This document shows, piece by piece, positions 22,349 through 43,875 of a stretch of 64,000 bases of DNA. The first letter of the stretch is position 1, and every line of letters begins with the position of its first letter. Below the pieces are notes generated by a model. The model was not told where the DNA came from. It was given only the letters and a program-made list of their open reading frames with translations, and did not search any database. This DNA is from Halomonas halmophila (GTDB lineage: Bacteria; Pseudomonadota; Gammaproteobacteria; Pseudomonadales; Halomonadaceae), in assembly GCF_006540005.1 (NCBI RefSeq), contig NZ_BJOC01000029.1:1-64000 (forward strand), in the 5' to 3' direction. The position numbers and the translations under genes are program-made.

Positions 22349-23287
22349 TCAGTCGAACTGCGCTTCGACCGCCTCGATGGCGGGGCGCCCATCACGCGCC
22401 TCGACACCCTCGAGCCAGGCCGCCACGGTATCGTGGTTGGCCGCGATCCATTCGCTGGCCACCTCACCGGCGGGCCGCTCCTCGTGACTGTAGGCATGCA
22501 CCCAGTCGTTCTGATCGGCGGTATCCACCACGTACTGGGTCATGAAACGATGGACATCGGCATCCCGGTCCTTCAGGTCGTCCGGCACCACGGTCCAGAC
22601 CGTGCTCTCGATCTCCGCCACACCGGCATCATCGGCATCCTCGAGATAGACGAGATCGAAGCTGACGTTCATCCAGTGCGGCTCCCAGCCGACAAAGGTC
22701 ACCCATTCGTCGTTGCGCATCTTCTGCTTGGCCTGGGCCAGCATCGCGGCCGTGGAACTCTCGCGCAGGGTCCAGTCGCCTAGATTGGCGAGATCCTTAT
22801 CGATGGCCTCACCGATGGCGGTATTGATGCCGGTGCCGGCTTCGATACCCAGGATGGTTCCATCGAAACGTTCGCGGTAGTCGTCAAGGTCCGCCACCGA
22901 TTCGACTCCGGCTTCCTTGACGTAACGTGGAACCACCAGGCCCGAGATGGCGCCCTGGATATTGGCGACGGCTTTTTCCACCTTGCCGTCGGCCACCAGT
23001 GGTTCGACCATCTCGGTCTGCACCGGGTACCAGCCACCCAGGTAGGCTTCCAGATCACCCTCGGCCACGCCATTGAGGATCACGCTCACCGCCAGGTCAT
23101 TCTGCCGGGTCTCGTAGCCCATGGCCTCCAGCAACTGGGCGGCGATTTCGGACTTGACGGTAACCCCCGGCCAGGGCGGTACACCGAAGCGAACTTCATC
23201 GAGATCGGCCTGGGCAATGGGCGCGACCAGGGAGGTCAGCGCCAGGGTGGCGCCCAGCAGGTGGCGACGGTGGTGCGTCATCGTCAT
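22349..23287 (-). CDS. Quaternary-ammonium ABC substrate-binding protein (CaiX/ProX-like)
   Basis: A 312-residue periplasmic binding protein of the OpuAC/ProX type. The signal sequence (residues 1-27) contains an Arg-Arg pair and might be Tat-type. Aromatic-box tryptophans expected to hold a trimethylammonium group are visible in PPWPGVTVK, GGWYP and VGWEPHWM. In Pseudomonas CaiX binds carnitine and docks on a shared permease; no permease or ATPase gene accompanies this gene either. GGAG precedes the ATG at 23287, and a 21-bp-phased repeat lies about 60 bp upstream. Carnitine or gamma-butyrobetaine is the likely ligand. Confidence 0.87.
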   Translation of the reverse strand: MTMTHHRRHLLGATLALTSLVAPIAQADLDEVRFGVPPWPGVTVKSEIAAQLLEAMGYETRQNDLAVSVILNGVAEGDLEAYLGGWYPVQTEMVEPLVADGKVEKAVANIQGAISGLVVPRYVKEAGVESVADLDDYRERFDGTILGIEAGTGINTAIGEAIDKDLANLGDWTLRESSTAAMLAQAKQKMRNDEWVTFVGWEPHWMNVSFDLVYLEDADDAGVAEIESTVWTVVPDDLKDRDADVHRFMTQYVVDTADQNDWVHAYSHEERPAGEVASEWIAANHDTVAAWLEGVEARDGRPAIEAVEAQFD

Positions 23288-24919: not shown

Positions 24920-26146
24920 ATGACCGATACCGAACTGCCACGCACGCCGGACTACGACGCCTGGCCGATCGACGCCGATCTCGACACCGTCTCCTTCACC
25001 CCGCGACTGGTCACGGTGCGCTGGAGCGACGGACGGATCAGCCGCTACCACGGCATCTGGCTGCGCGAAAACGCCACCGACGACACCACCATCAACCCCG
25101 CGACCCGGGAACGCATCCTGGACCTCTCCACCCTACCCGCCTGGCCGGAGGTCGAAGGCGCCGAGATAGACGCGACCGGTGCACTGTGCGTGGATTTCGC
25201 CCCCGAGGATCGCCGCCTGCGCTTCCACCCCGGCTGGCTGCGCGCCCACGACTACGACAATGTCAGTGATCCCGAAGCCCCGTTGGTGCCGGTGACGACC
25301 TGGCAGGGCGGCCCGGAGGCCGGCCCCGACACCCTGGACGCCACTGGCCTGCTCGATACCGATGCGGGCGACGACGCCGAAGAAGCGATCCTCGCCCCGG
25401 CCCTGGAGAGCGTACTCGGCAAGGGGCTGGTACGGCTGCGCAATCTACCGACCGAACCCGGCTCGCTGGAAGCTATCGCCTGGCGTATCGGTCCGGTGCG
25501 TCCCACCAACTTCGGGCAACTGTTCGACGTCAGGGCCAAGCCGGACCCGGATTCCAACGCTTATACCTCCATCGCCCTACCGCCCCACGTGGACCTGCCG
25601 ACCCGCGAGTATCACCCGGGCCTGCAGATGCTGCACTGCCTGGAAAACAGCGTGGAGGGCGGCCAGGCGGTGATGCTCGACGGCTTCGCCGTGGCCGAGG
25701 CGCTGCGCGACCGTCACCCCGAAGCCTGGACGACGCTGACTCGGGTGCGCTGGTGCTACGCCAACACAGCCAGAACCACCGACTACGTGTGGTACGAGCC
25801 GATGATCCGCCTCGACGCCCGGGGCAAGCTGCTCGAGGTGCGCATCGCCGATTTCCTGCGCGGCCCGCTGCAGACGGCCTTCGAGGACGTGGAGCCGGCC
25901 TATGAGGCACTGATGACGCTGCAGCGCCTGCTGCGCGACCCGGCCTTCGCCATCCGCTTCACCTACGCGCCCGGCGACCTGGTGATCTTCGACAACCGCC
26001 GCCTGTTGCACGCCCGCGACGCCTTCGAAGGCGCCAGCGGCCACCGCTGGCTGCAGGGCTGCTACATGGAGCGCGACGAGATCCGCTCGCGTTACCGCAT
26101 GATCCAACGGGCACGGCGCCAGCGTCGTCTCACCACCGATGCCTGA
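24920..26146 (+). CDS. Gamma-butyrobetaine dioxygenase-like Fe(II)/2-oxoglutarate oxygenase
   Basis: A 408-residue TauD/TfdA-family oxygenase with the N-terminal DUF971 zinc-like domain (about 25-115) seen in gamma-butyrobetaine hydroxylase and trimethyllysine hydroxylase. The iron facial triad is H223-x-D225 (PPHVDLPT) and H364 (NRRLLHARDAF); R376 probably binds 2-oxoglutarate. The expected reaction is hydroxylation of gamma-butyrobetaine to L-carnitine, which the cdh genes 5 kb upstream would degrade. AGGAG lies 6 bases before the ATG. It is a single-gene unit with its own AraC-type site. Substrate is inferred from family and context; other trimethylammonium acids are possible. Confidence 0.82.
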   Translation: MTDTELPRTPDYDAWPIDADLDTVSFTPRLVTVRWSDGRISRYHGIWLRENATDDTTINPATRERILDLSTLPAWPEVEGAEIDATGALCVDFAPEDRRLRFHPGWLRAHDYDNVSDPEAPLVPVTTWQGGPEAGPDTLDATGLLDTDAGDDAEEAILAPALESVLGKGLVRLRNLPTEPGSLEAIAWRIGPVRPTNFGQLFDVRAKPDPDSNAYTSIALPPHVDLPTREYHPGLQMLHCLENSVEGGQAVMLDGFAVAEALRDRHPEAWTTLTRVRWCYANTARTTDYVWYEPMIRLDARGKLLEVRIADFLRGPLQTAFEDVEPAYEALMTLQRLLRDPAFAIRFTYAPGDLVIFDNRRLLHARDAFEGASGHRWLQGCYMERDEIRSRYRMIQRARRQRRLTTDA

Positions 26147-26213: not shown

Positions 26214-27212
26214 TCAGCCGCGTTCTGCGGTCACACTGGGCGCCTCCCCGAATCTCGCCCGGTAGGCCCGGGAAAAGTGCGCCAGGTGTGCGAATCCGGT
26301 GGCCAACGCCGCCTCGGTGACCCGACAATGGCTGGCAGCCAACAGACGCTGGGCCTGGTCGAGCCGCATGGCCAGGTAGCATTGCTTGGGCGTCTCGCCG
26401 AAATGGGCCATGAAGCGACGCGTCAACTGGCGCTGCGACTGTCCCACCAACCGGCAGATCTCGGGAATGGGCAGCGCCTGGGCCAGGTTCGCCTCCATGA
26501 CCGCCAGGGCTCGCAGCACGCTGCGCGGCAAGTGCGCATAGCGCTCGTCCCGACTCGGCGAAGGCTCATCGTCACCGCGCTGGTGCACCAGTTGACGGCC
26601 CACGGCATTGGCCAGCGCCGGGCCATAGAGCCGCTCCATCCAGGCCAGCATCATGTCGATGCTCGCCGACCCACCCGATCCGGTCAGCCGGGACGCATCG
26701 AGCTCGAAGCGTGCCTGGCTGACCCTGAGCTGCGGGAACTCGCGTCGAAACGCCGGTACGCTTTCCCAATGCATCGCGACCCGATGCCCTTCCAGCACGC
26801 CCGAGCGCGCCAGGATGAAGGGTGCCGTGTCCAGCCCCCCCAGCCAGCCGCCATGGGCCGCCACTCGCCTCAGCACAGCGAGATCCTGTCCCCGGATGGT
26901 CGCCTCCGCCTCATAGGAAGACACCACCATCAGATGCGCGTCATCGTCCACGGCATCGAGCTCGCCATCGACATCGATACGCACGCCGTTGCTGGCCACC
27001 AGCCCTTCTCCATCGGCGGACAACAGCCGCCAGGCAAACAGGTCCCGGCCGAAACGGTTGGCCACGCGCAACGGCTCCAGCAGACAGAACAGGCTCAGCA
27101 TCGAGAACTTTGGCACCAGCCAGACATCCAGGGTGTGCTCCGCTTCCTCGGGCGCCAGCAGCGGCGGGGAATCCGGTCTCGGATAGGGCCAGGCGTCGGT
27201 GAACTCACTCAT
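26214..27212 (-). CDS. GlxA-family AraC regulator, third and more divergent copy
   Basis: A 332-residue regulator with DJ-1/PfpI-like (GGLDTAPFILARSGVLEG) and AraC-type (IPEICRLVGQSQRQLTRRF; VTEAALATGFAHLAHFSRAYRARFG) domains. It is less like the two regulators upstream than they are to each other. The ATG at 27212 is used; an in-frame extension to 27419 would run through the divergent promoter and into the first gene of the 11-gene operon. It is divergent from that operon with 138 bp between, so it is the obvious candidate regulator. That promoter lacks the 21-bp repeat found at the carnitine genes. Confidence 0.86.
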   Translation of the reverse strand: MSEFTDAWPYPRPDSPPLLAPEEAEHTLDVWLVPKFSMLSLFCLLEPLRVANRFGRDLFAWRLLSADGEGLVASNGVRIDVDGELDAVDDDAHLMVVSSYEAEATIRGQDLAVLRRVAAHGGWLGGLDTAPFILARSGVLEGHRVAMHWESVPAFRREFPQLRVSQARFELDASRLTGSGGSASIDMMLAWMERLYGPALANAVGRQLVHQRGDDEPSPSRDERYAHLPRSVLRALAVMEANLAQALPIPEICRLVGQSQRQLTRRFMAHFGETPKQCYLAMRLDQAQRLLAASHCRVTEAALATGFAHLAHFSRAYRARFGEAPSVTAERG

Positions 27213-27350: not shown

Positions 27351-28490
27351 ATGACCGCAAGCGGCAAGCTGTGGCTGTCCTCGGACGGACAGCGCCTGAA
27401 CCTCGACACCCAGGGCCATACCCGCGAATTCGCTGCCCTTTGGCTGCGCGAACGCGCCCCCGATTCCGCCACCCTGGATCCCCGCACCGGCCAGCGCCTG
27501 ATCGAGGCCGCCGAATTACCGCTCGACCTGACCCTGGAAAGTGCCGAGCTGGCCGGCGAGCATGTGGCGCTGCGTTTCAGCGACGGCCACGCCACCGACT
27601 TTCCGCTCGAGGCACTGGTCGAGGCCAGCACCGAGATCGCTACCAGCGTGCCCGGCCGTACCCTCTGGGATGCCAGCCTGGCCGAGCCACCCAGAGCGGA
27701 CTTCGCGGCCGCCCGCCAGGACGACGCCGCCCTGCTCGACATGTTAGAGAACCTGCATCGTTTCGGCTTCGTGCTAGTCTCGGGCGTGCCCACCGAGGAA
27801 GACGGAATGCAGACCCTGATCGACCGTATCGGTCCCCTGCGCCGCACCAACTGGGGCGGCATCGCCGACGTCAAGTCGGTGGCCAACGCCTATGACCTGA
27901 CCATGACCCAGCGTGGGCTCGAACCGCACACCGACAACCCCTATCGCGATCCGATTCCCGGCTACATCTGGCTGCATTGCCTGACCAATGCCGCCGACGG
28001 CGGTGACAACACCCTCGTCGACGGCTACCAGGCGGCGCTGACGCTCAAGGCGCGCGACCCCGAGGCCTTCGACTGCCTGACCCGTGTCGCCCCGGGCTTT
28101 CTCTACCATGACGACACCACTCGCCTGGAAGGTGAAGGGCCGCTGATCGAGCTCGACAGCCACGGCCGCCTGGCACGCGTGCGCTTCAACAACCGCACCG
28201 AACGTGTCGATGCCCTGTCGGCCGATGAACTCGAGCGCTACTACGCCGCGCGCCGGGCCTTCTACCACCTGATCACCTCGGACGAGCTGACCGTTCACCT
28301 CAAGCTCGATCCCGGCCAGATGTTGATCATGGACAACTATCGCCTGCTGCACGGGCGACGCGCCTACCAGCTCGCCGGCGGCGTTCGCCATCTGCGCCAG
28401 GGCTACGTCGACCGCGACAGCACGACCAGCCGACGCCTCGTGCTCCGCCGACAGCTCTCCGGTCAACCATCGCAGGAGGCCAGCGCATGA
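27351..28490 (+). CDS. TauD-family oxygenase of the BBOX/TmpA type, first gene of the 11-gene operon
   Basis: A 379-residue Fe(II)/2-oxoglutarate oxygenase with an N-terminal DUF971-like domain (about 10-100). Iron ligands are H193-x-D195 (EPHTDNPYR) and H334 (NYRLLHGRRAY); R346 or R349 should bind 2-oxoglutarate. It resembles gamma-butyrobetaine hydroxylase and TmpA, which hydroxylates 2-trimethylaminoethylphosphonate. It overlaps the HD-domain gene by 4 bp, and a TmpA-TmpB style pairing of hydroxylase and HD oxygenase is a known functional unit. The rest of the operon holds no phosphonate gene, so a trimethylammonium carboxylate seems a better substrate guess. GGAG lies 11 bases upstream of the ATG. 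Confidence 0.83.
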   Translation: MTASGKLWLSSDGQRLNLDTQGHTREFAALWLRERAPDSATLDPRTGQRLIEAAELPLDLTLESAELAGEHVALRFSDGHATDFPLEALVEASTEIATSVPGRTLWDASLAEPPRADFAAARQDDAALLDMLENLHRFGFVLVSGVPTEEDGMQTLIDRIGPLRRTNWGGIADVKSVANAYDLTMTQRGLEPHTDNPYRDPIPGYIWLHCLTNAADGGDNTLVDGYQAALTLKARDPEAFDCLTRVAPGFLYHDDTTRLEGEGPLIELDSHGRLARVRFNNRTERVDALSADELERYYAARRAFYHLITSDELTVHLKLDPGQMLIMDNYRLLHGRRAYQLAGGVRHLRQGYVDRDSTTSRRLVLRRQLSGQPSQEASA

Positions 28491-29074
28491 ACCAGGCCAG
28501 TTTCCGACGTTTCGACGAAAGCCGGCTCGACGAGTGGCACTTGATCGACGCCCGCTTCCGCGACTACCAGGCCGACGCCCCGCGCCGCGTGCTCGACCAT
28601 CTGCATCGGCTGGCCGGGGACCACCACGGCTACCCGGTGGATCGCTTCGAGCACAGCCTGCAGACAGCGACCCGCGCCCTGCGTGACGGTGCCGACGAGG
28701 AAATGGTGGTGTGCGCCCTGCTGCATGACATCGGCGACGATCTCGCACCGGCCAATCATGCCGAGATCGCCGCGGGCATCCTCGAGCCGTTCATCGATCC
28801 CTTGAATGCCTGGATGATTCGCCACCACGAACTCTTTCAGGGGTATCATTACCGCCACTTCTTCGGCCAGGATCGCCACGCCCGGGAGCAGTTTCGCGAC
28901 CATCCGGCCTATGCGCGCACGGTGCGCTTCTGTGACCACTGGGACCAGGCGAGCTTCGACCCCGACTACGATACCCTGCCACTCGAGCACTTCGTGCCCA
29001 TGGTCGAGCGCGTCTTGGGCCGTCCGCCCTTCGGTGGCCTGCCCGATCTGATCGAGGAGAATTTGCCGCGATGA
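28487..29074 (+). CDS. HD-domain protein, probable PhnZ/TmpB-like diiron oxygenase
   Basis: A 195-residue HD-fold protein. Candidate metal ligands are H56, H80-D81 (LLHDIGDD), H91 (NHAE), H113/H114 (RHHE) and D150 (CDHWDQ). The two additional histidines between the HD pair and the last Asp are those expected of a diiron site, as in PhnZ, TmpB and inositol oxygenase; ordinary HD phosphohydrolases have fewer. H56 to H80 is 24 residues, as between the first two His ligands of PhnZ. Overlap by 4 bp at both ends with the oxygenase and the decarboxylase genes shows tight coupling. I infer oxidative cleavage of the hydroxylated product made by the preceding enzyme; a hydrolase cannot be excluded. 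Confidence 0.75.
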   Translation: MNQASFRRFDESRLDEWHLIDARFRDYQADAPRRVLDHLHRLAGDHHGYPVDRFEHSLQTATRALRDGADEEMVVCALLHDIGDDLAPANHAEIAAGILEPFIDPLNAWMIRHHELFQGYHYRHFFGQDRHAREQFRDHPAYARTVRFCDHWDQASFDPDYDTLPLEHFVPMVERVLGRPPFGGLPDLIEENLPR

Positions 29075-30666
29075 CCTGCGCCCAGCGACTGATTCAACTG
29101 CTCGAGGCCTACGGCGTCGATACCGCCTTCGGCATCCCCGGCGTGCACACCATCGAACTGTACCGTGCCCTTGGCGAAAGCCGACTGCACCACGTCACGC
29201 CGCGTCACGAACAGGGCGCCGGTTTCATGGCCGACGGCCATGCCCGGGCGAGCGGCCTGCCCGCTGCCTGCTTCATCATCACCGGTCCCGGCATGACCAA
29301 TATCGCCACCGCCATGGGGCAGGCCCTGGCCGACTCGGTGCCGATGCTGGTGATCTCCAGCGTCAATCAGCGCGCCAGCCTGGGGCGTGGTCAGGGGCGC
29401 CTGCACGAGATGCCCCACCAGCGCGAGACGCTGGCCGGCGTCAGTTTGTTCAGCCACACCCTGCACGACCCCGAGGCGCTCCCGGAGGTCATGGCCCGTG
29501 CCTTCTCGATATTCCACAGTGCCCGCCCCGGCCCCGTGCATATCGAGATCCCCCTGGACGTGATGGGCGCCCCGGTATCCGACGAGCCCATTACGCCGAC
29601 CCGTGCCTACCCGCCGGCACCGGCTCCCGAGGCGCTGGCACGAGCCGCCGAGTGGCTCGGTGCGGCTTCGCGTCCCCTGGTCCTGCTCGGCGGCGGCACC
29701 GCCGACGCGGCGGACGCGGCCCGCGCCCTGGTCGAACGACTCGATGCTCCGACCTTTACCTCCATCAACGCCAAGGGCGTGCTCGGGCTCGACCATCCGC
29801 TGGACCTGGGCGCCACTGCCAGCCTTCCCGCGGCCCGTCGGCTGGCCCGCGAAGCCGACGTGGTACTGGCCATCGGCACCGAGCTCGGCGAGACCGACTA
29901 CGACCTGGTGTTCGATGGCGGCTTCGTACTCGACGGCCGCCTCATTCGCATCGATATCGACCCCCAGCAGCTCGGCCGCAACCAGGCCGCCGATCTGGCC
30001 TTGCTCGCCGAAGCCGGCCAGGCCATGGCGGCCCTCGTCGAACGACTGCCCGAGTCGACGCAACGCGACGGTATCAGGCGCGCCGAGGCCGTGCGCCGAG
30101 CCCTGGCCCTCGCTGAGGATGCCGAGGTGGCCCCCTACGCACCGCTCTTCGCCACCCTGCGCGAGGTACTGCCGGACGCCATCCTGGTTGGCGATTCCAC
30201 CGGCCCGGTCTACGCCGGCAACTTCCTGGCCTCGCTGCCGGCACCGCGCCGCTGGTTCAACGCCGCCACCGGCTTCGGCACCCTCGGCTACGGCCTGCCC
30301 GCCGCCCTGGGCGCCGCCTTGGCCCGGCCGGAACAACCGGTGGTCGCCCTGGTCGGCGACGGCGGCCTGCAGTTCGTGCTCGGCGAGCTGGGCACCGCCC
30401 GCGACCTCGGCCGCCCCGTGGCAATCATGATCTGGAATAACGACGGCTACGACGAGATCCGCCGCTTCATGTCGATGAACGAGATACCGCACCTGGGCGT
30501 CGATCTGGCCACCCCCGACTTCCAGGCCCTGGCGCAGGCCTTCGCCTGTCGCCACCTCGGCGTGACCGACCCGGCGAGCCTGCACGACGCCCTCGGCCGC
30601 CTCGACGAAGCGAGTTCCCCATTGATCATCGAGGTCGATGCCACCGCCTGGACCGCCTCGCTCTGA
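29071..30666 (+). CDS. aruI: Thiamine-diphosphate 2-oxo acid decarboxylase (AruI-like)
   Basis: A 531-residue acetolactate-synthase-fold enzyme. The N-terminal Glu region is RHEQGAGFMADGHAR, and the ThDP/Mg motif starts GDGGLQFV and ends WNNDGYDE (about residues 430-457). It is closely similar in sequence pattern to Pseudomonas AruI, which decarboxylates 2-ketoarginine (5-guanidino-2-oxopentanoate) in the arginine transaminase route. The matching transaminase AruH is encoded three genes downstream. Placement with betaine-type genes suggests the real substrate may be a trimethylammonium 2-oxo acid of similar length and charge. Starts within the HD gene (ATGA overlap). Confidence 0.85.
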   Translation: MTCAQRLIQLLEAYGVDTAFGIPGVHTIELYRALGESRLHHVTPRHEQGAGFMADGHARASGLPAACFIITGPGMTNIATAMGQALADSVPMLVISSVNQRASLGRGQGRLHEMPHQRETLAGVSLFSHTLHDPEALPEVMARAFSIFHSARPGPVHIEIPLDVMGAPVSDEPITPTRAYPPAPAPEALARAAEWLGAASRPLVLLGGGTADAADAARALVERLDAPTFTSINAKGVLGLDHPLDLGATASLPAARRLAREADVVLAIGTELGETDYDLVFDGGFVLDGRLIRIDIDPQQLGRNQAADLALLAEAGQAMAALVERLPESTQRDGIRRAEAVRRALALAEDAEVAPYAPLFATLREVLPDAILVGDSTGPVYAGNFLASLPAPRRWFNAATGFGTLGYGLPAALGAALARPEQPVVALVGDGGLQFVLGELGTARDLGRPVAIMIWNNDGYDEIRRFMSMNEIPHLGVDLATPDFQALAQAFACRHLGVTDPASLHDALGRLDEASSPLIIEVDATAWTASL

Positions 30667-30743
30667 CGGCTCGTCACCTCGACCGAATCACTCTGAGGAG
30701 GAGATGACTGTCTCATCCTCCCTGCAAAGGGAAGCATTGATTT

Positions 30744-31685
30744 ATGAACACGCATACCACGACCCTGACCATGACCCTGATCGCCGGCCTGACCCTGGCC
30801 GACCCCGCCACGGCCGCCGATCGCGATGACCAGTTGCACCTGGTCGTGCCGCCCTGGCCCGGCGTGACCGTCAAGAGCGAGATCTTCGCCCAGCTCATCG
30901 AGCCACTGGGCTATACCACCAGCAAGCAACAGCTCAGCTCGACGGTCGGCTACAACACCCTGCAGACCGGCGACAGCGATGCCTTCCTCGCCGGCTGGAT
31001 ACCGGCACAGCAGGAGAGCTACGACGCCGCCATGAAGGCCGACGCCATCGTCGACCTGGGCAACAACGTCAACGGTGCCCGCATGGGCTTCGCGGTCCCG
31101 GACTACGTCTACGAGGCGGGCATCACCAGCGCCGAACAACTGGCCGACCCCGAGGTGGCCAAGCGCTTCGACAAGACCGTCTACAGCATCGAGAGCGGCT
31201 CCACCGTCACCGACATGCTGAACCAGGCCATCGAGGCCGACACTTACGGGTTGGGTGACTGGGAAGGCATGTCCTCGTCCACGCCCGGCATGCTCAGCGA
31301 GGTCGAGGCCGCGGTCGACGAGGACCGCTGGATCGTCTTCTACGGCTGGACGCCCCACTGGATGGTGCCGGAATACGACACGCGCATCCTCGACGACCCC
31401 GAGGGCGTCTATGGGGCCGACAACGGACGCAGCGACGTCAAGACCATCGTCGCCACGTCCTACGCCAAGGCCAACCCCAACCTGACCCGGCTGCTCGACC
31501 AGTTCGTGATCAGCGCCGACGAGCAGAGCGAATTCATCCGCGACTACAGCCTCAAGGAGCGCGAGCTGGAAGCCGTGGCCCACGACTGGCTGGCGTCCCA
31601 CCCCGAGCGAGTCGCCGAATTCCTCGAGGGCGTCGAGACCCGCGACGGCGGCAATGCGCTCGATGCCGTGGAGGCCAGCCTGTGA
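30744..31685 (+). CDS. Quaternary-ammonium ABC substrate-binding protein inside the operon (ProX-like)
   Basis: A 313-residue periplasmic binding protein with a signal peptide of about 23 residues (LTLADPATAA). It is a paralogue of the CaiX-like protein at 22349: the same PPWPGVTVKSEI start of the mature domain, AGWIP and YGWTPHWM tryptophans of an aromatic box, and the same C-terminal layout. It therefore should bind a trimethylammonium compound. No glycine-betaine-type permease or ATPase is encoded nearby, so it probably docks on a transporter elsewhere. The class II aldolase gene starts within its stop codon (GTGA). Confidence 0.85.
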   Translation: MNTHTTTLTMTLIAGLTLADPATAADRDDQLHLVVPPWPGVTVKSEIFAQLIEPLGYTTSKQQLSSTVGYNTLQTGDSDAFLAGWIPAQQESYDAAMKADAIVDLGNNVNGARMGFAVPDYVYEAGITSAEQLADPEVAKRFDKTVYSIESGSTVTDMLNQAIEADTYGLGDWEGMSSSTPGMLSEVEAAVDEDRWIVFYGWTPHWMVPEYDTRILDDPEGVYGADNGRSDVKTIVATSYAKANPNLTRLLDQFVISADEQSEFIRDYSLKERELEAVAHDWLASHPERVAEFLEGVETRDGGNALDAVEASL

Positions 31686-32425
31686 CGACACCTCGTGACG
31701 AGGCAGCCATGCAGCGCCGCGACCTGGCCGCCGCCTACCGGCTGGTCGCACTGGACGGCATGGATGACGGCATCTCGACGCATATCTCGGCACGCCTGTC
31801 CGGCGGGCGCTTCCTGCTCAACGCTTTCGGCCTGCGCTTCGACGAGGTACGTGCCGACAACCTGGTCACCGTCGACGCCGAAGGCGAGATCCTCGACGAC
31901 CCGACCGGGCTCGGCATCAATCCCGCCGGTTTCACCATCCACAGTGCCATCCATGCGGCGCGTCCCGAGGTCGCCTGTGTGCTGCACACCCACACGGTCG
32001 CCGGCGTCGCCGTTTCCTGCCTCGAGGAAGGCCTGCTGCCGCTGAACCAGTGGGCGATGCAGTTTCATGACCGGCTCGGTTATCACGACTATGAGGGCAT
32101 CGCCCTGGACCTCGACGAACGTCGACGGCTGACCGCCCATCTCGGTCGCCACATGGCGATGCTGCTGCGCCAGCACGGCCTGCTGACCTGCGGACGCAGC
32201 GTGGGCGAAGCCTTCCTGCGCATGCGCGACCTGGAACGCAGTTGCCAGACCCAGTTGGCCGCCCAGGCCACCGGACGCCCCTTGCGTCAGGCCAGCCCGG
32301 CACTGTGCGAGCACGTCGCCCGCCAGTACGAAGCCTGGGCCGCCAGCCCGCAGGGCACCGACCTCGCCTGGCAGGCCGAACGCCGCCGTCTGCCAGCCGA
32401 TGACACTTCCCCTCAGGCCATCTAG
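31682..32425 (+). CDS. Class II aldolase/adducin-family protein
   Basis: A 247-residue protein of the fuculose-1-phosphate aldolase/adducin family. Metal-site histidines appear as HTHTVAG (about residue 101-103) and RQHGLLTCG (about 164), with an acid in NPAGFTIHSAIHAARPEV; these are the features of active lyases. The start is GTG at 31682, overlapping the previous stop; an ATG at 31709 is an alternative. No aldolase step is needed in the AruH-AruI route, so its place in the operon is unexplained. It could cleave or decarboxylate a hydroxylated intermediate. The gene ends 10 bp before the transaminase. Confidence 0.83.
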   Translation: MTTPRDEAAMQRRDLAAAYRLVALDGMDDGISTHISARLSGGRFLLNAFGLRFDEVRADNLVTVDAEGEILDDPTGLGINPAGFTIHSAIHAARPEVACVLHTHTVAGVAVSCLEEGLLPLNQWAMQFHDRLGYHDYEGIALDLDERRRLTAHLGRHMAMLLRQHGLLTCGRSVGEAFLRMRDLERSCQTQLAAQATGRPLRQASPALCEHVARQYEAWAASPQGTDLAWQAERRRLPADDTSPQAI

Positions 32426-32435
32426 CGAGACTTTC

Positions 32436-33635
32436 ATGCGTTATTCCCGACTGACCGACCGTATCGCCGGCGAGGGCGCCGCGGCCTGGGACATCCATAA
32501 CCGGGCCCTGGCCCGCCAGGCCGCTGGCGAGGACATCACCGTGCTGTCGGTGGGCGACCCGGACTTCGACACGCCGGCGGCGATCGTCGAGAGCGCCGTG
32601 AACAGCCTGCGTGACGGCGCCACCCATTATCCCGACGTTCAGGGCAAGCGCGGCCTGCGCGATGCCATCACCGAGCGCTACCGCCGGCACGGCGTCGCGG
32701 CCGACCCCGAGCGCATCATCGTGATGGCCGGGGCCCAGTGCGGGCTCTACGCCGTGGCCCAGTGCCTGCTCGACCCAGGTGACGAGGTCGTCGTGCCCGA
32801 GCCCTGCTATGTCACCTACGAGGCGGTGTTGCGCTCCACCGATGCCGCCATGGTACGCATCCCGCTACGCGGCGATGCCGGCTTCCGCCTCGACCCAGCC
32901 GATATCGAGGCGGCGATCACCCCGCGCACCCGGGCGATCATGCTCAACAGCCCGCACAACCCCACCGGGCAACTCATCGACGCCGACACCTGGCACGCCA
33001 TCGCCGAGCTCTGCCGACGCCATGATCTGTGGCTGATCTCCGACGAGGTCTACGCCAACCTGGTCTTCGAGGGCGAGCACCAGTGCGCTGCCGCCCTACC
33101 CGGCCTGGAGGATCGCAGCGTGGTGATCGACAGTCTCTCCAAGTCCCACGCCATGACCGGCTGGCGACTGGGCTGGGTGCTCGGTCCCCGGGAGCTGATC
33201 GAGCACCTCGGCAACCTGGCGCTGTGCATGCTCTACGGCTGCCCGGACTTCATCCAGGACGCCGCCCGGGACGCCCTGACCCGACAGGCCCCGGAACTCG
33301 AGGCCATGCACCAGGGCTATCGAGCCCGACGCGATGCCGTCTGCGCGGCCCTGGCGGACTGTCCGGCCGTGAAGGTCATCCCACCGGCGGCGGGCATGTT
33401 CCTGATGGTCGATATCCGCGCCACCGGTCTCTCGTCCCAGGCCTTCGCCGACCGACTACTCGATGAACACAGCGTGTCGGTGCTTTCCGGCGAGGCCTTC
33501 GGTCCCTCCGCCGCCGGTTTCATCCGGCTGAGCCTGACCGTCGACGAAGCCCGATTGACCGATGCCTGCCAACGCCTGGCCCGCTGTGCCGAGACGGCAC
33601 GCGACGACGCCGGCCTCCTTTCCACCGTCCAATGA
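32436..33635 (+). CDS. aruH: PLP aminotransferase, arginine:pyruvate transaminase-like (AruH)
   Basis: A 399-residue fold-type I class I/II aminotransferase. The PLP lysine is in [16 protein letters not shown], and the substrate-binding SPHNPTGQ and C-terminal RLSLT arginine motifs are present. The N-terminus [20 protein letters not shown] and many later blocks match Pseudomonas AruH closely, so the ATG at 32436 is chosen over one 12 codons upstream that overlaps the aldolase gene. AruH transfers the alpha-amino group of arginine to pyruvate. With AruI in the same operon the pair should convert a basic L-amino acid to the aldehyde one carbon shorter. Confidence 0.87.
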
Positions 33636-33642
33636 GTCGCCT

Positions 33643-34437
33643 ATGACATCATCGCTCGACGACCACACTCCGCAAGCCACCGCCGCCCCGGCGGTGCAAG
33701 CGCACCACCTCGTCAAACGCTATGGCGACCTCGAGGTGCTGCGCGATGTCTCCCTCGAGGTCCCCGAGGGCAGCGTTACCTCCATCATCGGCGCCAGCGG
33801 ATCCGGCAAGAGTACTCTGCTGCGCTGCCTCAATCTGCTGGAACGCCCCGACCAGGGCGACCTGGCGATTGCGGATGAGACGATCCAGTTCGACCGCAAT
33901 CCCCAGGGCGACGTCGTCGGCCTTAACCGACGCCAGCTGCAGCGGCTGCGCGCCAAGGTCAGCATGGTCTTCCAGCAGTTCAATCTGTGGCCGCACTTCA
34001 GCGTGCTCGGCAACGTCACCGAGGCCCCGATGCGGGTACAGGGGCTCTCCCGCCGACGCGCCACCGAAGTGGCCGAGCACTACCTGGCGCGTGTCGGCAT
34101 GGCCGACAAGCGCGATGCCTACCCGGCGTTCCTGTCCGGCGGCCAGCAGCAGCGCGTGGCCATTGCTCGCGCGCTCGCCATGGAACCACGCCTGCTGCTG
34201 TTCGACGAGCCGACATCGGCGCTGGACCCGGAACGCGTCAATGAGGTCCTCGGCGTGATCCGCGACCTGGCCGGCGAAGGCCGCACCATGGTGCTGGTCA
34301 CCCACGAGATGGCCTTCGCCCGGGAGGTCTCCGACCAGGTCGTGTTTCTCGATCGCGGCGTCATCGGCGTCGCCGGCCCCCCTGGCGAGGTCTTCGACGA
34401 CCCGCGCTGTCGGCGCTTCGCGGCTCCCGCCGCCTGA
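33643..34437 (+). CDS. Polar amino-acid ABC importer ATPase (HisP/ArtP-like)
   Basis: A 264-residue ATPase with Walker A (GASGSGKST), Q-loop ([10 protein letters not shown]), signature LSGGQQQR, Walker B ([12 protein letters not shown]) and H-loop (VTHEM), typical of the histidine/arginine/lysine/octopine importer class. The ATG at 33643, 7 bp after the transaminase stop, is used; a longer frame from 33562 lies inside the transaminase gene. It works with the binding protein and two permeases that follow, and energises uptake of what the operon degrades. Confidence 0.92.
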
Positions 34438-34481
34438 TCGTCCACAGCCCCCATTTTCGAACAACGAGTCAGGAGAACACC

Positions 34482-35252
34482 ATGCAACGCACCCTCATCC
34501 CCGCCATCGCGCTGTCCATCGCCAGTCTCGGCGGTACCGCCCAGGCCGCCGAGCCCCTGCAGATCGGCATTTCCGCCGAGCCCTACCCCCCTTTCACCTA
34601 CACCTCGTCCGAAGGCGAGTGGACCGGCTTCGAAGTGGAACTGGGCATGGCCATCTGCGAGGCCATGGAAGCCGAATGCGAGATCAAGCCCACCGGCTGG
34701 AGCGGTATCATCCCCTCGCTCAAGGCCGGGCGCATCGACATGATCATGAACTCCATGTCGATCACCAAGGCCCGCCAGAAGGTCATCGACTTCACCGATC
34801 CCTACTACTTCACCCCTGGTGCCTACGTGGCCGCCGATGACCAGGAACTGAGCCTTCCCGAAGGGCTGGATGGCCTGATACTAGGCGTGCAGAGCGCCAC
34901 CACCAACGCCACCTATGCCCGCCGCGCCCTGCGTGACACCGGCGTCGATATCCGCCTCTACGACCAGGCAGAGCAGGTCAACCGCGACCTGCTCTCCGGC
35001 CGCCTGGACGTGATCCTGGCCGACAAGATCGCCATGAACGAGCTGGTCGAGCGCGACGAGGCCGAAGGCTTCGAGATCAAGAGCACCGCACCCCACCACG
35101 AAGCCTATGGCGAGGGCGTCGGCATTGGCATCCGAAAGGCTGACGACGACCTGGAGGCCAACCTCAACGCGGCCATCGAAAAGGTCCAGCAGGATGGCAC
35201 TTGCACCCGACTCTCCGAGTCGTACTTCGGCACCGACGTCTGCACCGACTGA
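34482..35252 (+). CDS. Polar amino-acid ABC substrate-binding protein (Arg/Lys/Orn class)
   Basis: A 256-residue periplasmic protein: signal peptide of about 22 residues ending TAQAA, then a cluster 3 binding-protein fold (LQIGISAEPYPPF; GWSGIIPSLKAGRIDMI; SITKARQKVIDFTDPYY). The last segment shows the Asp and Arg residues that bind the ligand alpha-carboxylate and amino groups. The family imports arginine, lysine, ornithine, octopine and similar cations. AGTCAGGAGAACACC precedes the ATG. The ligand could be arginine or a methylated lysine; sequence alone cannot decide. Confidence 0.9.
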   Translation: MQRTLIPAIALSIASLGGTAQAAEPLQIGISAEPYPPFTYTSSEGEWTGFEVELGMAICEAMEAECEIKPTGWSGIIPSLKAGRIDMIMNSMSITKARQKVIDFTDPYYFTPGAYVAADDQELSLPEGLDGLILGVQSATTNATYARRALRDTGVDIRLYDQAEQVNRDLLSGRLDVILADKIAMNELVERDEAEGFEIKSTAPHHEAYGEGVGIGIRKADDDLEANLNAAIEKVQQDGTCTRLSESYFGTDVCTD

Positions 35253-35281
35253 GTACCATCGACTGCCATCGTGATTCGAAC

Positions 35282-35308
35282 CGCCGGGCGATGACGCTGT
35301 CCGGCGGC
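35282..35308 (+). other. Intergenic hairpin after the binding-protein gene
   Basis: CCGCCGG and CCGGCGG can pair with a 13-base loop in the 184-bp gap before the permease genes. No T-run follows, so it is not a clear terminator. A hairpin here could protect the upstream binding-protein message, which would raise its level over the permeases, as in other ABC operons. Confidence 0.35.
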
Positions 35309-35436
35309 TTCGCCATGTCCATGCAAGGATGTAAACGCAAGTGTGACACGGTACGCGCCGGTCGATCCCCGAAGAGACCGTACGACGTTATCCCGTCCCG
35401 GCGCACACTCCGTGTCTTCCAAGGTGCTTTTCGACC

Positions 35437-36150
35437 ATGAACAACCTCTCGCAAGAAGGCCTGGCCGACTGGTCCGGTCCCATCTTCCAGGGCGCGCTGA
35501 CGACCCTCGAGATTGCCGTGCTGGCCTATGCCATCGGCCTGCTGCTCGGCCTGACCGGCGCCAGCGCGCGTCTCAGCCCCTGGGCACCGATACGCGGCCT
35601 GGGTATCCTGTACTCCACGACAGTGCGAGCCGTGCCCGAGCTGCTGCTGATCATCCTGCTGTACTATGCCGGCTCCCAGGCGCTCACCATTCTGGTCAAC
35701 GCCATGGGCTTTTCCGGGCAGGTGGCCATCAACGGCTTCGTCACCGCCGTTGGCGTGCTGGCCTTCGTTCAGGGCGCCTACATGACCGAAGTGCTTCGTG
35801 GCGCCATCCTGGCCATTCCCCGAGGCCAGCTCGAGGCTGCCGATGCCTTCGGCTTCTCGGCCTGGGCGCGCTTCCGGCGCATCGTCGTGCCCGCCATGCT
35901 GCCCAATGCCCTGCCGGGCATGTCGAATCTCTGGCTGATCCTGATCAAGGACACCGCCCTGATCAGCGTCATCGGCTACAGCGAACTGTTTTTCACCATC
36001 CAGCAGGCCGCCGCCAGCACTCGTGCCCATTTTCTGTTCTATGCCGCCGCCGGCGTCATCTACCTCGCGATGACGCTGTCGTCCACGGCACTGTTCGCGC
36101 GCCTGGAACGTTACCTGCGTCGCGGCCAGCCGACCACTGAGGAGGCCTGA
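35437..36150 (+). CDS. Polar amino-acid ABC permease (HisQ/ArtQ-like)
   Basis: A 237-residue inner-membrane permease with about five transmembrane helices and the EAA loop EAADAFGFSAWARFRRIVVP (about residues 129-148) that contacts the ATPase. It pairs with the permease encoded 1 bp downstream to form the heterodimeric channel of the HisQM type. The start at 35437 follows a 184-bp gap with no convincing ribosome-binding site, the only sizeable gap in the operon. Confidence 0.9.
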   Translation: MNNLSQEGLADWSGPIFQGALTTLEIAVLAYAIGLLLGLTGASARLSPWAPIRGLGILYSTTVRAVPELLLIILLYYAGSQALTILVNAMGFSGQVAINGFVTAVGVLAFVQGAYMTEVLRGAILAIPRGQLEAADAFGFSAWARFRRIVVPAMLPNALPGMSNLWLILIKDTALISVIGYSELFFTIQQAAASTRAHFLFYAAAGVIYLAMTLSSTALFARLERYLRRGQPTTEEA

Positions 36151-36151
36151 C

Positions 36152-36907
36152 ATGGACTTTTCCTGGCTTGGCGACCCCTTCTATCAGGACTACCTGATCG
36201 AGGGCTTTGTCAATACCCTGTGGCTGGTCGCCGTGTCGGCGGTCGGCGGCCTCGCCCTGGCCGTGCTCGTGGCCATCACGCGGCTCAAGGCACCCCGCCC
36301 CTTGGCATTGGCCGTTCAGGGCTTCACCACGGTGATGCGCGGAACGCCGCTGCTGGTGCAGCTGTTCTTCTTCTACTACGGCGTGGGGCGCCTGCTCGAG
36401 GGTATCCCCGGCATCCAGGACAGCCTCATCTGGCCATTGCTGCGCGATCCCTTCTTCTACGGTGCACTCACCTTCATCCTGAGTGTCGGCGCCTATTCCG
36501 GCGAGGTCATTCGCGGCGCCCTGTTGAGCGTGCCACCGGGCGAACGCGAGGCCGGCCGCGCCTTTGGCCTGACGCCCCTGCAGGTCTTTTTCCGCCTCTG
36601 GCTGCCCCGTGCCATCCAGCAATGCCTGCCGACCCTGACCGGCGAAATGATTCTGCTGCTCAAGTCCGTTCCGCTGGTCTCGACCATCGCCATGATGGAT
36701 CTGCTGCAGGCTGCCAATATCATTCGCGACGAGACCTTCCTGGTCTATGAACCCCTGATGCTGATCGGTGGCATCTATCTGGCCATGACACTGGTGCTCA
36801 CCCTGGTACTGCGCCAGGTGGAACGTCATTTCCCCGGCATGAAGCCCGAACGCGGCCGGGGATGGCTGCCGCGCCGCTCCCTGCACACCCATGGAGAAGC
36901 CCCATGA
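36152..36907 (+). CDS. Polar amino-acid ABC permease (HisM/ArtM-like)
   Basis: A 251-residue inner-membrane permease with five or so helices and the coupling motif EREAGRAFGLTPLQVFFRLWLP. It starts 1 bp after the stop of its partner permease (GAGGCCTGACATG arrangement), and its last 4 bp overlap the aldehyde dehydrogenase start, tying import to catabolism in one transcript. It completes a four-component importer with the ATPase and binding protein upstream. Confidence 0.9.
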   Translation: MDFSWLGDPFYQDYLIEGFVNTLWLVAVSAVGGLALAVLVAITRLKAPRPLALAVQGFTTVMRGTPLLVQLFFFYYGVGRLLEGIPGIQDSLIWPLLRDPFFYGALTFILSVGAYSGEVIRGALLSVPPGEREAGRAFGLTPLQVFFRLWLPRAIQQCLPTLTGEMILLLKSVPLVSTIAMMDLLQAANIIRDETFLVYEPLMLIGGIYLAMTLVLTLVLRQVERHFPGMKPERGRGWLPRRSLHTHGEAP

Positions 36908-38352
36908 GCACACTGACACGACATTTCATCGACAACGCTTGGGTGGACAGTCGTGCCACGCGATGCCTGGACGTCCTCGACCCTTATCGACAGACTCGCA
37001 TCGCCACCGTGACCGCCGGCGACCCTGCCGACGTGAACGATGCCGTGGCCGCCGCTCGCAGTGCGCTGGCCGGTTGGCGAGACCTGACGGGCGAACGTCG
37101 CGGTCGTTTCATCGACGCTATCGCCGACGCCCTCGAGGCCCGTCGTGTCTCGCTCGTCGCGCTTTCCAGCCGCAACAACGGCAAGCCGCTGACCGAAGCC
37201 GACCAGGACCTGGCCGACGCCATCGACTGCTACCGCTACTATGCGGGAGAAGCCCGGGTACTGGATGCACGCCAGGGCGAGGCAGTCGCCACCGGCGAGG
37301 CAGACATGGTATCGCGACGCTACCAGGACCCGGTCGGCGTGGCCGGCTTGATCACCCCCTGGAACTTTCCGCTGGTCAGCAGTGCCTGGAAGATCGCCCC
37401 GGCGCTCGCCGCCGGCTGCACGGTGGTCTTCAAGCCCTCCGAGGTCACGCCGCTGCCCGAACAGGCACTGGCCGAGATCGCCCTCGAGACCGAGTTGCCT
37501 CCCGGCGTCTTTAACCTGGTGCACGGCGACGGCCGAGGCGTGGGCGAGGCGTTGACCGCTCACCCCGGGGTCGACAAGCTGTCATTCACCGGCAGCAACC
37601 CCGTAGGCGAGGCCGTGATGGCCGCCGCCGCCCGGGGAACACGCAACGTTTCCCTGGAACTCGGCGGCAATTCGCCGATCCTGGTCACCGAAGATGCCGA
37701 CCCGGACCTGGCCGCCGAACTGGTCCTGGCAGGCTTCGCCTACAACGCCGGCCAGATGTGCTCGGCGACCTCGCGTCTGCTGGTCCACGAGTCACTGGCC
37801 GATACCCTCCATGAGCGCCTCGACGCGGCCATCGCCGACCTCGTCCCGGGCGATCCGCTGGACAACGCCACCACCCTGGGCCCGCTGATCAACACCGCCC
37901 AGTACGAACGGGTCCTCGGCTATCTGGCCGCCGCCGAGCATGAAGGACTCGATGCCGGTAGCGCCCCGGTCTCGGCCCTGCCCGATCACGGCTACTTCAT
38001 TGCCCCCCGGGTCTTTCGCGATGTGCCCACCACGAGCCGGCTGTGGCGCGAGGAAATCTTCGGTCCCATCCTGTGCTCGCGTCGCGTGGCCAGTGATGAC
38101 GAGGCGATCACCCTGGCCAACGACAGCGCCTTCGGCCTGGCCGCCACCGTTGTCGCCGGCGAAAAGGACCGCGCTGCCGATATCGCCGCACGGCTCCAGG
38201 CGGGCAATGTCTGGTGCAACACTCACCAGGTGGCCCCGCCAGGACTCGGCTGGGGCGGCATGAAGGGCAGCGGCATCGGCCGCGAACTCGGTCGCGCGGG
38301 CCTCGACGCCTATCTGGAGACGCGGTACGTCACTCTGGAGAACGACATCTAG
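36904..38352 (+). CDS. NAD(P)-dependent aldehyde dehydrogenase (aminoaldehyde/betaine aldehyde type)
   Basis: A 482-residue-class aldehyde dehydrogenase. The catalytic Cys is in GQMCSATSR, the general-base Glu in LELGGNSP, and the NAD site in TPWNFPLVS and FTGSNPVGE. The C-terminal block GLGWGGMKGSGIGREL resembles betaine-aldehyde and aminoaldehyde dehydrogenases, enzymes that accept omega-trimethylammonio aldehydes. As the last gene of the operon it should oxidise the aldehyde produced by the AruH-AruI pair, the role KauB has in Pseudomonas arginine catabolism. It overlaps the permease gene by 4 bp. Confidence 0.88.
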   Translation: MSTLTRHFIDNAWVDSRATRCLDVLDPYRQTRIATVTAGDPADVNDAVAAARSALAGWRDLTGERRGRFIDAIADALEARRVSLVALSSRNNGKPLTEADQDLADAIDCYRYYAGEARVLDARQGEAVATGEADMVSRRYQDPVGVAGLITPWNFPLVSSAWKIAPALAAGCTVVFKPSEVTPLPEQALAEIALETELPPGVFNLVHGDGRGVGEALTAHPGVDKLSFTGSNPVGEAVMAAAARGTRNVSLELGGNSPILVTEDADPDLAAELVLAGFAYNAGQMCSATSRLLVHESLADTLHERLDAAIADLVPGDPLDNATTLGPLINTAQYERVLGYLAAAEHEGLDAGSAPVSALPDHGYFIAPRVFRDVPTTSRLWREEIFGPILCSRRVASDDEAITLANDSAFGLAATVVAGEKDRAADIAARLQAGNVWCNTHQVAPPGLGWGGMKGSGIGRELGRAGLDAYLETRYVTLENDI

Positions 38353-41721: not shown

Positions 41722-41932
41722 AAATCACCTATTTGGAGAGTACCCACAAACAACAGCGGCGAGGCTCTTTTCACCAACAAGACATTCAAGTCCCGCCGCC
41801 TTGCATGTCGTACGAGATGTCCCATCCTTGGGCCACATGCCAGCATGTGGCAAAGCAAGAATCCCGCCATTAATCGATCGCGCCTGTCATAGTCCCTTGA
41901 GAGGCGCGATCACCCTGTACTTCATGATTCGA

Positions 41933-43231: not shown

Positions 43232-43286
43232 GGTCAGACTCCATCTAGTGTCAAGGAATGGCTATATCCGGAATACCGCATGGTAC

Positions 43287-43793: not shown

Positions 43794-43875
43794 GTTCTTA
43801 CCTCTTGCGGTATCGAACAGGGAGCGGTCCCTCTTTGCTACTTCACCGGGCCGCTCCAGTACATCCAGCGAGTGA

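Follow-up and report, generated by a model that had tools for sequence, protein, structure and literature searches.

A conserved pairing of a TmpA-like oxygenase with an HD-domain protein in Halomonas: a possible route from trimethyllysine to glycine betaine

In a 64,000-nucleotide stretch of Halomonas halmophila DNA (positions 1 to 64,000 of contig NZ_BJOC01000029.1; hereafter the window, from source genome G000), eleven plus-strand genes at 27351-38352 form an operon that adjoins genes of carnitine catabolism. The conserved core of this operon is a gene pair encoding a TmpA-like Fe(II)/2-oxoglutarate (2OG) oxygenase, TmpA1, and an HD-domain protein, HD-1; the aminotransferase (AT), the thiamine diphosphate (ThDP) enzyme, the aldehyde dehydrogenase (ALDH), the aldolase and the amino-acid importer are each missing from some loci. 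We propose, with a confidence that falls a little short of even, that two coupled modules would lead from trimethyllysine to delta-valerobetaine (5-trimethylaminovalerate, TMAVA), and on through gamma-butyrobetaine and carnitine to glycine betaine. The proposal draws on gene content, paralogy, co-occurrence, conserved pockets and the predicted fold of HD-1, and from these we infer every substrate, the site of hydroxylation and the role of HD-1 as an oxygenase that cuts C-C bonds.

In the optional module A, a LAO-like ABC importer would bring in trimethyllysine, AT and the AruI-like ThDP enzyme would convert it into a C5 aldehyde, and ALDH would oxidise the aldehyde to TMAVA, for which direct uptake by way of the OpuAC-type binding protein is also possible. 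In the core module B, TmpA1 would hydroxylate the trimethylammonium acid next to its carboxylate and HD-1 would remove the end carbon, giving gamma-butyrobetaine and CO2 from TMAVA. A BBOX-type oxygenase, BBOX2, would then form carnitine, which carnitine dehydrogenase (CDH), BKACE and the thioesterase would take to glycine betaine and acetoacetate. This chain would employ ten of the eleven operon genes. By analogy, its unprecedented step would be the removal of one carbon by an oxygenase and an HD protein, which we propose because PhnYZ and TmpAB hydroxylate next to an anion and then cut that bond (PMC10574752, PMC8177086).

Results

The operon and its conservation

The operon genes, followed by the neighbouring genes, are listed below in window coordinates, with profile scores given against cut-offs and PLP standing for pyridoxal phosphate.

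27351..28490, plus strand: TmpA1, TmpA-like Fe(II)/2OG oxygenase (NCBIfam TmpA, 453.6 against 400)
28487..29074, plus strand: HD-1, HD-domain protein with six diiron ligands, proposed mixed-valent diiron oxygenase of a new subfamily
29071..30666, plus strand: AruI-like ThDP 2-oxoacid decarboxylase, operon paralogue (PRK07524, 772 against 500)
30744..31685, plus strand: OpuAC/ChoX-type binding protein, proposed quaternary ammonium ligand (Pfam OpuAC, 188.2 bits)
31682..32425, plus strand: class II aldolase-family protein, optional (PRK07044, 301.4 against 207)
32436..33635, plus strand: class I/II PLP aminotransferase (AT), start inferred (Pfam Aminotran_1_2, 245.5 bits)
33643..34437, plus strand: ABC ATPase of the amino-acid importer, start inferred (NCBIfam and Pfam)
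34482..35252, plus strand: SBP3, LAO-like binding protein (LAO family in PDB)
35437..36150, plus strand: ABC permease 1 (open reading frame and conserved synteny)
36152..36907, plus strand: ABC permease 2 (open reading frame and conserved synteny)
36904..38352, plus strand: ALDH, start inferred (best BADH, 440, below 668.6)
26214..27212, minus strand: divergent GbdR-like AraC/GATase1 regulator, start inferred (GbdR, 202.4, below 480)
24920..26146, plus strand: BBOX2, BBOX-type, proposed gamma-butyrobetaine dioxygenase (TIGR02409, 316.8, below 414.75; best NCBIfam)
22349..23287, minus strand: second ChoX/OpuAC-type binding protein (TIGR03414, 246.9, below 379)
19733..20200, plus strand: thioesterase-like domain of carnitine dehydrogenase (C-terminal part of PRK07531, 124 bits)
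18780..19736, plus strand: L-carnitine dehydrogenase, CDH (NF005471, 435.6 against 414)
17875..18783, plus strand: BKACE-type, proposed dehydrocarnitine cleavage enzyme (no NCBIfam cut-off reached)

Operon gene families were assigned with NCBIfam and Pfam profiles, the two permeases being named from reading and synteny only. An initial annotation of the window had described an eleven-gene operon of these families, and all of its genes lie where it placed them. The 4-bp overlaps that it reported are present at four junctions (TmpA/HD, HD/ThDP, OpuAC/aldolase and permease 2/ALDH, the last with the likely ALDH start at 36904), but the other junctions lack them, with gaps of, for example, 77 bp ahead of OpuAC and 184 bp ahead of permease 1. 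It was right that quaternary-ammonium-type parts are present. On the upstream side stand BKACE, CDH, the thioesterase-like domain, two GbdR-like regulators, the second ChoX-type protein, BBOX2 and a divergent third GbdR-like regulator. CDH belongs to carnitine catabolism by its NF005471 score; BBOX2 stays below the membership cut-off of TIGR02409, though this is its best family. Scans of the window DNA gave no tRNA, no Rfam match and no excess of promoter or terminator patterns.

The operon is not a chance assembly, because complete or partial versions of the block were found in two collections, at 46 Halomonadaceae loci in the first and at 20 loci in the second. The 46 were Halomonadaceae by name (L004-L048, L050) among 80 HD loci kept of 111 found. 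TmpA lies directly upstream of HD in 45 of these 46 loci, the exception (L039) starting at a contig end, and a divergent GbdR-like regulator stands beside the pair in 44/46 loci and in 16/20 of the second collection. For a presence matrix, 68 family loci were reduced to 65 by removal of three repeat HD sequences (L085 and L166 were left out). A whole ThDP gene is present in 42 loci (with a fragment in L133), AT in 51, OpuAC in 58, the aldolase in 21, ALDH in 31 and SBP3 in 49. ALDH occurs only together with ThDP (31/31 ALDH loci; 0/23 loci without ThDP). OpuAC is missing from seven loci, all with ThDP, AT and SBP3, and is kept in all 26 that lack this full set. The smallest clusters, such as L146, consist of TmpA-HD-OpuAC, BBOX2, regulators, a second OpuAC and cdh genes, with no amino-acid module; five of the 65 loci keep the amino-acid ABC genes without AT or ThDP. 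Length-based picking of open reading frames (ORFs) yielded many antisense ORFs in these GC-rich loci and served context reading only.

Co-occurrence across Halomonadaceae genomes

Among 121 Halomonadaceae genomes, orthologues were defined by identities of at least 72% for HD-1 (next match 51%), at least 61% for BBOX2 (next 43%) and at least 67% for CDH (next 59%); G016, G023, G037 and G119, with weaker CDH matches only, were counted as lacking CDH. HD-1 was found in 56 genomes, BBOX2 in 55 and CDH in 75. HD-1 and BBOX2 occur together in 55 genomes and are both absent from 65, with HD-1 alone in a single genome of 320 contigs (G106) and BBOX2 alone in none (Fisher p = 4.8e-34). The two genes are unlinked in 18 of these 55 genomes, being more than 30 kb apart or on another contig (nine genomes of genus g2, six of g7, two of g1, one of g20). 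CDH accompanies HD-1 in 55 of its 56 genomes; 20 genomes have CDH only and 45 neither. The link to gamma-butyrobetaine and carnitine catabolism proposed in the initial annotation is thus supported, and the check that it suggested, whether the gene set tracks with cdh genes, gave a positive answer. Since CDH is also found in 20 of the 65 genomes without HD-1, it is BBOX2, and with it the gamma-butyrobetaine step, that is the specific partner of HD-1.

An SBP3 orthologue (at least 60% identity) is present in 44 genomes, all of them with HD-1. An AruI-type decarboxylase, either the operon copy or a second one, is encoded in 44/44 of these, against 3/12 HD-1 genomes without SBP3 (p = 2.9e-8), and the same holds within the 20 genomes that lack the operon ThDP gene (both 9, SBP3 only 0, decarboxylase only 2, neither 9; p = 3.3e-4). 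The importer therefore goes with the decarboxylase, whereas TmpA1-HD-BBOX2 can stand alone. This tie favours an amino acid that is transaminated and decarboxylated before TmpA1-HD acts, and speaks against its direct use by TmpA1.

The source genome also carries a paralogous pair, TmpA2-HD-2, in which HD-2 shares 45% identity with HD-1 (C8:72105-72653; L003:8061-9788); a LysR-like gene adjoins it. HD-2 is present in 22 genomes, five of which have neither HD-1 nor BBOX2, and it is associated with HD-1 (17 both, 5 HD-2 only, 39 HD-1 only, 60 neither; p = 0.0018). As HD-2 tracks BBOX2 only loosely, TmpA2-HD-2 probably has another substrate. Two HD-1 copies each were seen in G011, G048, G059 and G070; in both cases examined (L132 of G011, L137 of G048) the second copy lies in a reduced TmpA-HD-OpuAC(-aldolase) cluster.

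The oxygenase TmpA1

TmpA1 has the TauD/GBBH-N domains of the oxygenase family and passes the TmpA equivalog NF049936, and its best PDB match is TmpA itself (6npb). It fails both the TMLD/TMLH model TIGR02410 (167.7 < 268.3) and the BBOX model (256.2 < 414.75). Pocket positions were compared in BBOX numbering, taken from PMC13257696 and PMC12067446 and from alignments made here. Positions 177/181/194 are Y/W/Y in human BBOX, F/F/Y in BBOX2 (the same as in psBBOX), TmpA2 and the SAR11 proteins, Y/F/Y in TmpA 6npb, Y/F/F in three oxygenases with a TmpB-like partner (L150, L152, L154) and W/A/M in TmpA1. Position 191 is Asn in human BBOX, TmpA 6npb and the same three oxygenases, Ser in BBOX2, and Asp in TmpA1, TmpA2 and SAR11. 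TmpA1 thus has neither the pocket of Leisingera TmpA and of the relatives with a TmpB-like partner (aromatic residues at 177/181/194 with Asn191) nor the TMLH cage (Y217/W221/Y234), and shows three new aromatic positions (Y181, Y205, W207). Residues W168, A172, D182, M185 and W207 are conserved at every locus that gave a TmpA1 match (67/67, counting three duplicates).

The oxygenases with this Asp (TmpA1, TmpA2 and SAR11) group as one clade (22 rows, 97/94) in a 39-protein tree, and the three TmpB-partnered oxygenases fall outside it; the long branches in this tree (L052, L078 BBOX and L150) are unreliable. The TmpA1 clade (12 rows, 100/99) includes three proteins of another bacterial family. 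The L155 TmpA1 also passes NF049936 (403.2), and the HD partners of such TmpA1 proteins are not TmpB. The profile is a likely source of wrong names, and TmpA labels on the TmpA1 clade are probably wrong as to substrate.

The HD-domain protein HD-1

The HD-1 ligands H56, H80, D81, H91, H114 and D153 are invariant in 30/30 aligned sequences. In a Foldseek comparison of the predicted AlphaFold (AF2) model (pLDDT 94.0), the top ten matches were all PhnZ or TmpB (prob 1.00, TMq 0.62-0.66), with mouse MIOX at 0.51. Yet HD-1 fails both the TmpB model NF049941 (47.6 < 300) and the Phn-HD/PhnZ model TIGR03276 (45.1 < 214.6). A YxxE substrate loop is given as a feature of PhnZ and TmpB in PMC8177086. 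This loop is not found in HD-1, where DHHGY aligns with PhnZ DYIGE and the Gly-Tyr is near-invariant in relatives, and the His that follows HDxG in PhnZ and TmpB is replaced by an invariant Asp throughout the HD-1 family. Because the ligands are kept, the TmpB and PhnZ scores fail and both the YxxE loop and the His are replaced, we regard HD-1 as a HD-oxygenase-like family of its own, and by analogy a role as an oxygenase that cuts a C-C bond may be assigned to it. Acidic residues at the position of PhnZ R158 were considered as a conserved charge switch and rejected, since this position varies within the HD family. The HD gene of the window is 98% identical to one from Halomonas elongata 153B.

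No TmpB above cut-off was found in any of the 121 genomes (0/121); in seven of them, a TmpB-like match scoring 163-258 bits lies at another locus. In the two of five fetched loci that were read, the oxygenase gene overlaps the HD gene, and a phosphonatase lies near one of them (L150; TIGR01422, 320 against 220), with none seen on reading the other (L152).

The amino-acid module and the binding proteins

The operon ThDP enzyme belongs to the AruI family by its PRK07524 score (5-guanidino-2-oxopentanoate decarboxylase). The aminotransferase, called AruH-like in the initial annotation, does fall in class I/II, but that name is loose, as its scores stay below the specific cut-off of each of the 25 NCBIfam families listed for it (GntC comes nearest, 308.6 against 415). 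A second AruI copy lies elsewhere in G000 (C30:53491-55080), and such a second AruI-type gene, 52-67% identical to the operon copy, is present in 71/121 genomes with and without HD-1; operon ThDP copies range over 67-100% identity, with a partial one at 63% in G006. In G000 the order at the second locus is ureohydrolase (agmatinase TIGR01230, 212.8 against 174.3), Gate-domain permease, AruI and ALDH, a set found in 8/9 second-AruI loci fetched, G000 included, but not in L128; three loci have a gap of one to two kilobases ahead of ALDH. The guanidinobutyrase that the initial annotation found missing is indeed absent from the operon, the ureohydrolase being beside the second AruI instead. The operon ALDH is 62% identical to the ALDH of one arginine-type locus (L084), and by sequence the operon ThDP enzyme and ALDH are paralogues of this separate arginine-type locus. 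Its existence would leave the operon copies free for another substrate. In genus g2, all ten operon ThDP copies have one in-frame TGA within the aligned stretch, which may be at the very end.

In the OpuAC-type protein, the equivalents of ChoX W43, W90 and W205 are Trp in all 60-61 loci covered, and the Y119 position is Met (residue roles from PMC8371380). SBP3 keeps the LAO head-group contacts Arg77 and Asp161 in 52/52 sequences and has Phe52 changed to Trp and Ser69 to Asn, likewise in 52/52. At the LAO Asp11 position there is no Asp, the residues being Ser/Ala or Ala/Gly depending on gap placement, and a conserved Glu adjoins; with this ambiguity and the Glu, a loss of the side-chain acid was rejected and the position is retained only as changed. 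The opine binders OccJ and NocT likewise have Trp at the Phe52 position, and the LAO residue roles are those of PMC5740067 (Table 3). The changes in the SBP3 pocket would fit a non-standard side chain.

Relatives outside Halomonadaceae

Among 369 genomes of the class, an HD relative (E 1e-20) was found in 27 besides G000, with a best identity of 57%. Three genomes of genus g180 (family f157) were examined, and all have TmpA1 (51-54%), a BBOX-like gene (37-41% to BBOX2) and CDH (58-72%). One locus (L155) holds the ABC importer, a TetR-like gene, AT, ThDP, HD, TmpA1 and a GbdR-like gene in rearranged order, and a second (L156) has the same arrangement up to the contig end. The third (L161) reads TmpA1, two unrelated ORFs (one an RNA ligase), ThDP, AT, a BetI-type TetR gene, a D-2-hydroxyacid dehydrogenase, BKACE, CDH and thioesterase. 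The dehydrogenase (L161:14237-15295) lies between the TmpA1/ThDP/AT genes and BKACE-CDH; in HD's place it would, in this one case, be consistent with TmpA1 producing an alpha-hydroxy acid, after which the ThDP enzyme would act.

Two SAR11 loci (L078, L081) combine a choline-type ABC transporter, BBOX-like, CDH, BKACE, ALDH, TmpA-like and HD genes in one stretch, and in Marinomonas (L055) an oxygenase-HD pair related to TmpA2-HD-2 stands beside a BCCT transporter. L083:758-11754 places the HD family in a corrinoid demethylation setting: an oxygenase and an HD gene accompany MttB (assigned by Pfam) and genes that, read by eye, resemble methylenetetrahydrofolate reductase, RACo and serine dehydratase. 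In the cyanobacterium Moorena (L052:8818-10582) the pair lies between methyltransferase-like ORFs, perhaps in a biosynthetic cluster. Many HD relatives from SAR202 and Gemmatimonadota lack a co-oriented oxygenase partner, so the family at large may serve other functions.

Downstream of the operon, the window encodes a secreted-looking protein with long Gly-Gly-Glu runs (38671-39801) adjoining a PKHD-type Fe(II) dioxygenase (39957-40631), followed by a trans-3-hydroxy-L-proline dehydratase (650 against 550 bits) with a TRAP transporter set (40687-44910).

Discussion

The direction of the initial annotation, from a putative trimethylated amino acid towards carnitine genes, is well supported by comparative genomics; what it missed is the standing of the oxygenase-HD pair as conserved core and likely chain-shortening machine. 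Several observations weigh against the route through TMAVA. The replacement of the BBOX cage Y177/W181/Y194 by W/A/M makes the binding of a trimethylammonium group there less than obvious, and Asp occupies the BBOX Asn191 position in all 22 TmpA1, TmpA2 and SAR11 oxygenases of the tree. According to PMC7764450, human TMLH has Asp231 at this position, thought to hold the alpha-ammonium of trimethyllysine; such a residue would be awkward for a plain carboxylate substrate such as TMAVA. The aldolase has no role in the proposed pathway, which also leaves unexplained the six of 65 loci that keep AT with neither importer nor decarboxylase in the locus. A hydroxyacid-dehydrogenase-like ORF (L147:7706-8662), read by eye as glyoxylate-reductase-like and with a short match to the L161 dehydrogenase, sits inside a TmpA-HD-OpuAC-aldolase operon without AT or ThDP, and L161 itself has TmpA1 and no HD in the locus. 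HD-2 is also associated with BBOX2, more weakly (17 both, 5 HD-2 only, 38 BBOX2 only, 61 neither; p = 0.0016). The genomes are related, so that the p-values, which carry no correction for relatedness, overstate independence, and the identity limits were chosen after viewing the gaps in the distributions. Six of the nine decarboxylase-less genomes belong to genus g4, and another of the nine (G013) has the operon ThDP fragment of L133. Finally, G085 has BBOX2 and BKACE side by side (L087:9100-13700) and no CDH match between them; the stretch that was read contains no N, and CDH has been lost or has diverged.

Among the sequence evidence, the TMLH-type Asp, present in 67/67 TmpA1 proteins and throughout the clade whose members pair with this HD family, speaks most strongly for TmpA1 acting on trimethyllysine itself. 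TmpA1 would then be a trimethyllysine 3-hydroxylase and HD-1 would cleave C2-C3 of 3-hydroxytrimethyllysine into gamma-butyrobetaine, glyoxylate and ammonia, presumably after the model of C-C bond cleavage by MIOX, with the transaminase branch as a side route. The invariant Asp of the HD family where PhnZ and TmpB have His would suit such a reaction, as would the five loci with the amino-acid ABC genes but no AT or ThDP, and the aldolase and the L147 ORF could handle its products. It nevertheless predicts an importer independent of an AruI-type decarboxylase, yet every importer genome has one and 9/12 importer-less HD-1 genomes lack one; moreover, the association of TmpA1 with AT and ThDP persists in another family despite the rearranged order, and TmpA1 lacks the TMLH cage and fails TIGR02410. 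We therefore consider the direct reaction unlikely, while noting that both it and the alpha-hydroxy acid route end at gamma-butyrobetaine. A mixed order, with TmpA1 acting on trimethyllysine, then AT/ThDP/ALDH and then HD, uses the same genes and was rejected as impossible in the minimal loci without AT and ThDP. A comparably low probability attaches to the same architecture serving another substrate, whether a cationic or quaternary amino acid or a betaine, and other intermediates, examples being a hydroxylated or shorter trimethyllysine analogue, trimethylornithine or a betaine-lipid head group: chain length is fixed by no sequence feature, the TmpA1 pocket resembles none of TmpA, BBOX and TMLH, and SBP3 keeps its amino-acid head contacts in a changed side-chain pocket, but the BBOX2 tie (55/55) points to gamma-butyrobetaine as the product.

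The two remaining readings were set aside. That the operon is a second arginine-transaminase pathway, yielding 4-guanidinobutyrate with the oxygenase genes as passengers, would accord with the PRK07524 score and the LAO-like importer; it is very improbable in view of the separate ureohydrolase-AruI-ALDH locus and the lack of a ureohydrolase here, the constancy of TmpA-HD next to dispensable ThDP and ALDH, the tie of HD-1 to BBOX2 and CDH, and an SBP3 with no Asp at the LAO Asp11 position, though a conserved Glu adjoins. The TmpA/TmpB phosphonate pathway, from 2-trimethylaminoethylphosphonate to glycine betaine and phosphate, is suggested by the TmpA equivalog score and by TmpA and TmpB/PhnZ as the closest solved structures. 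We give it hardly any credence, on account of the TmpB score of HD-1 and its missing YxxE loop; the far better TmpB-like matches lie elsewhere, in 7/121 genomes and once near a phosphonatase, and no phosphonate gene was noticed in the HD-1 neighbourhoods read, where no systematic search for such genes was made.

It seems to us not quite an even call that HD-1 represents a third substrate class of HD diiron oxygenases, which would cut a C-C bond of hydroxylated trimethylammonium acids together with a 2OG oxygenase of the Asp191 type. If true, HD-1 and its oxygenase would carry out a counterpart of the TmpAB reaction without phosphorus, shortening delta-valerobetaine or trimethyllysine to gamma-butyrobetaine in Halomonas, and HD diiron oxygenases would extend beyond inositol and phosphonates; other betaines may be treated likewise by the relatives in SAR11, SAR202, Gemmatimonadota, Marinomonas and a cyanobacterium. 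The pathway as a whole would provide a bacterial route from trimethyllysine through delta-valerobetaine to glycine betaine, and the related SAR11 genes would make marine trimethyl-amino-acid turnover testable. Delta-valerobetaine is made by microbes and has been linked in mammals to obesity and heart failure (PMC11773067, PMC8976029). None of the entries listed by the literature searches describes such a pathway, which is weak evidence of novelty since most subscription journals lay outside their coverage.

Comparison with known systems

A TmpAB-like enzyme pair has apparently been recruited to carbon rather than phosphorus chemistry and joined to a duplicated arginine-type module. The latter recalls the arginine transaminase pathway of AruH, AruI and KauB in its aminotransferase, AruI-family ThDP decarboxylase, aldehyde dehydrogenase and cationic importer; here, however, the ThDP enzyme and ALDH are paralogues, the ureohydrolase is in the separate AruI locus and TmpA-HD is present instead. 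Pairs of a 2OG hydroxylase and an HD mixed-valent diiron oxygenase are known in four versions, acting on phosphonates (PMC10574752). Like TmpA/TmpB and PhnY/PhnZ, the operon has a two-gene oxygenase-HD pair whose HD protein keeps the H...HD...H...H...D pattern, and as with TmpAB the setting is one of quaternary ammonium compounds. It differs from them in an HD protein without YxxE and with Asp for His after the HD dyad, in an oxygenase with Asp for Asn and a rebuilt cage, and in having carnitine and amino-acid genes as neighbours. Eukaryotic carnitine biosynthesis (TMLH, HTMLA, TMABA-DH and BBOX; PMC7764450) likewise leads from trimethyllysine to gamma-butyrobetaine and carnitine with two related 2OG oxygenases, but for the operon we propose an HD protein and a transaminase/decarboxylase in place of the aldolase, and a catabolic direction with CDH and BKACE downstream. 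Gut DavB and DavA form TMAVA from trimethyllysine with a monooxygenase and an amidase (PMC8976029, PMC11773067). TMAVA would thus be a common intermediate, which in the operon would be reached by a transaminase, a decarboxylase and ALDH instead, and broken down further.

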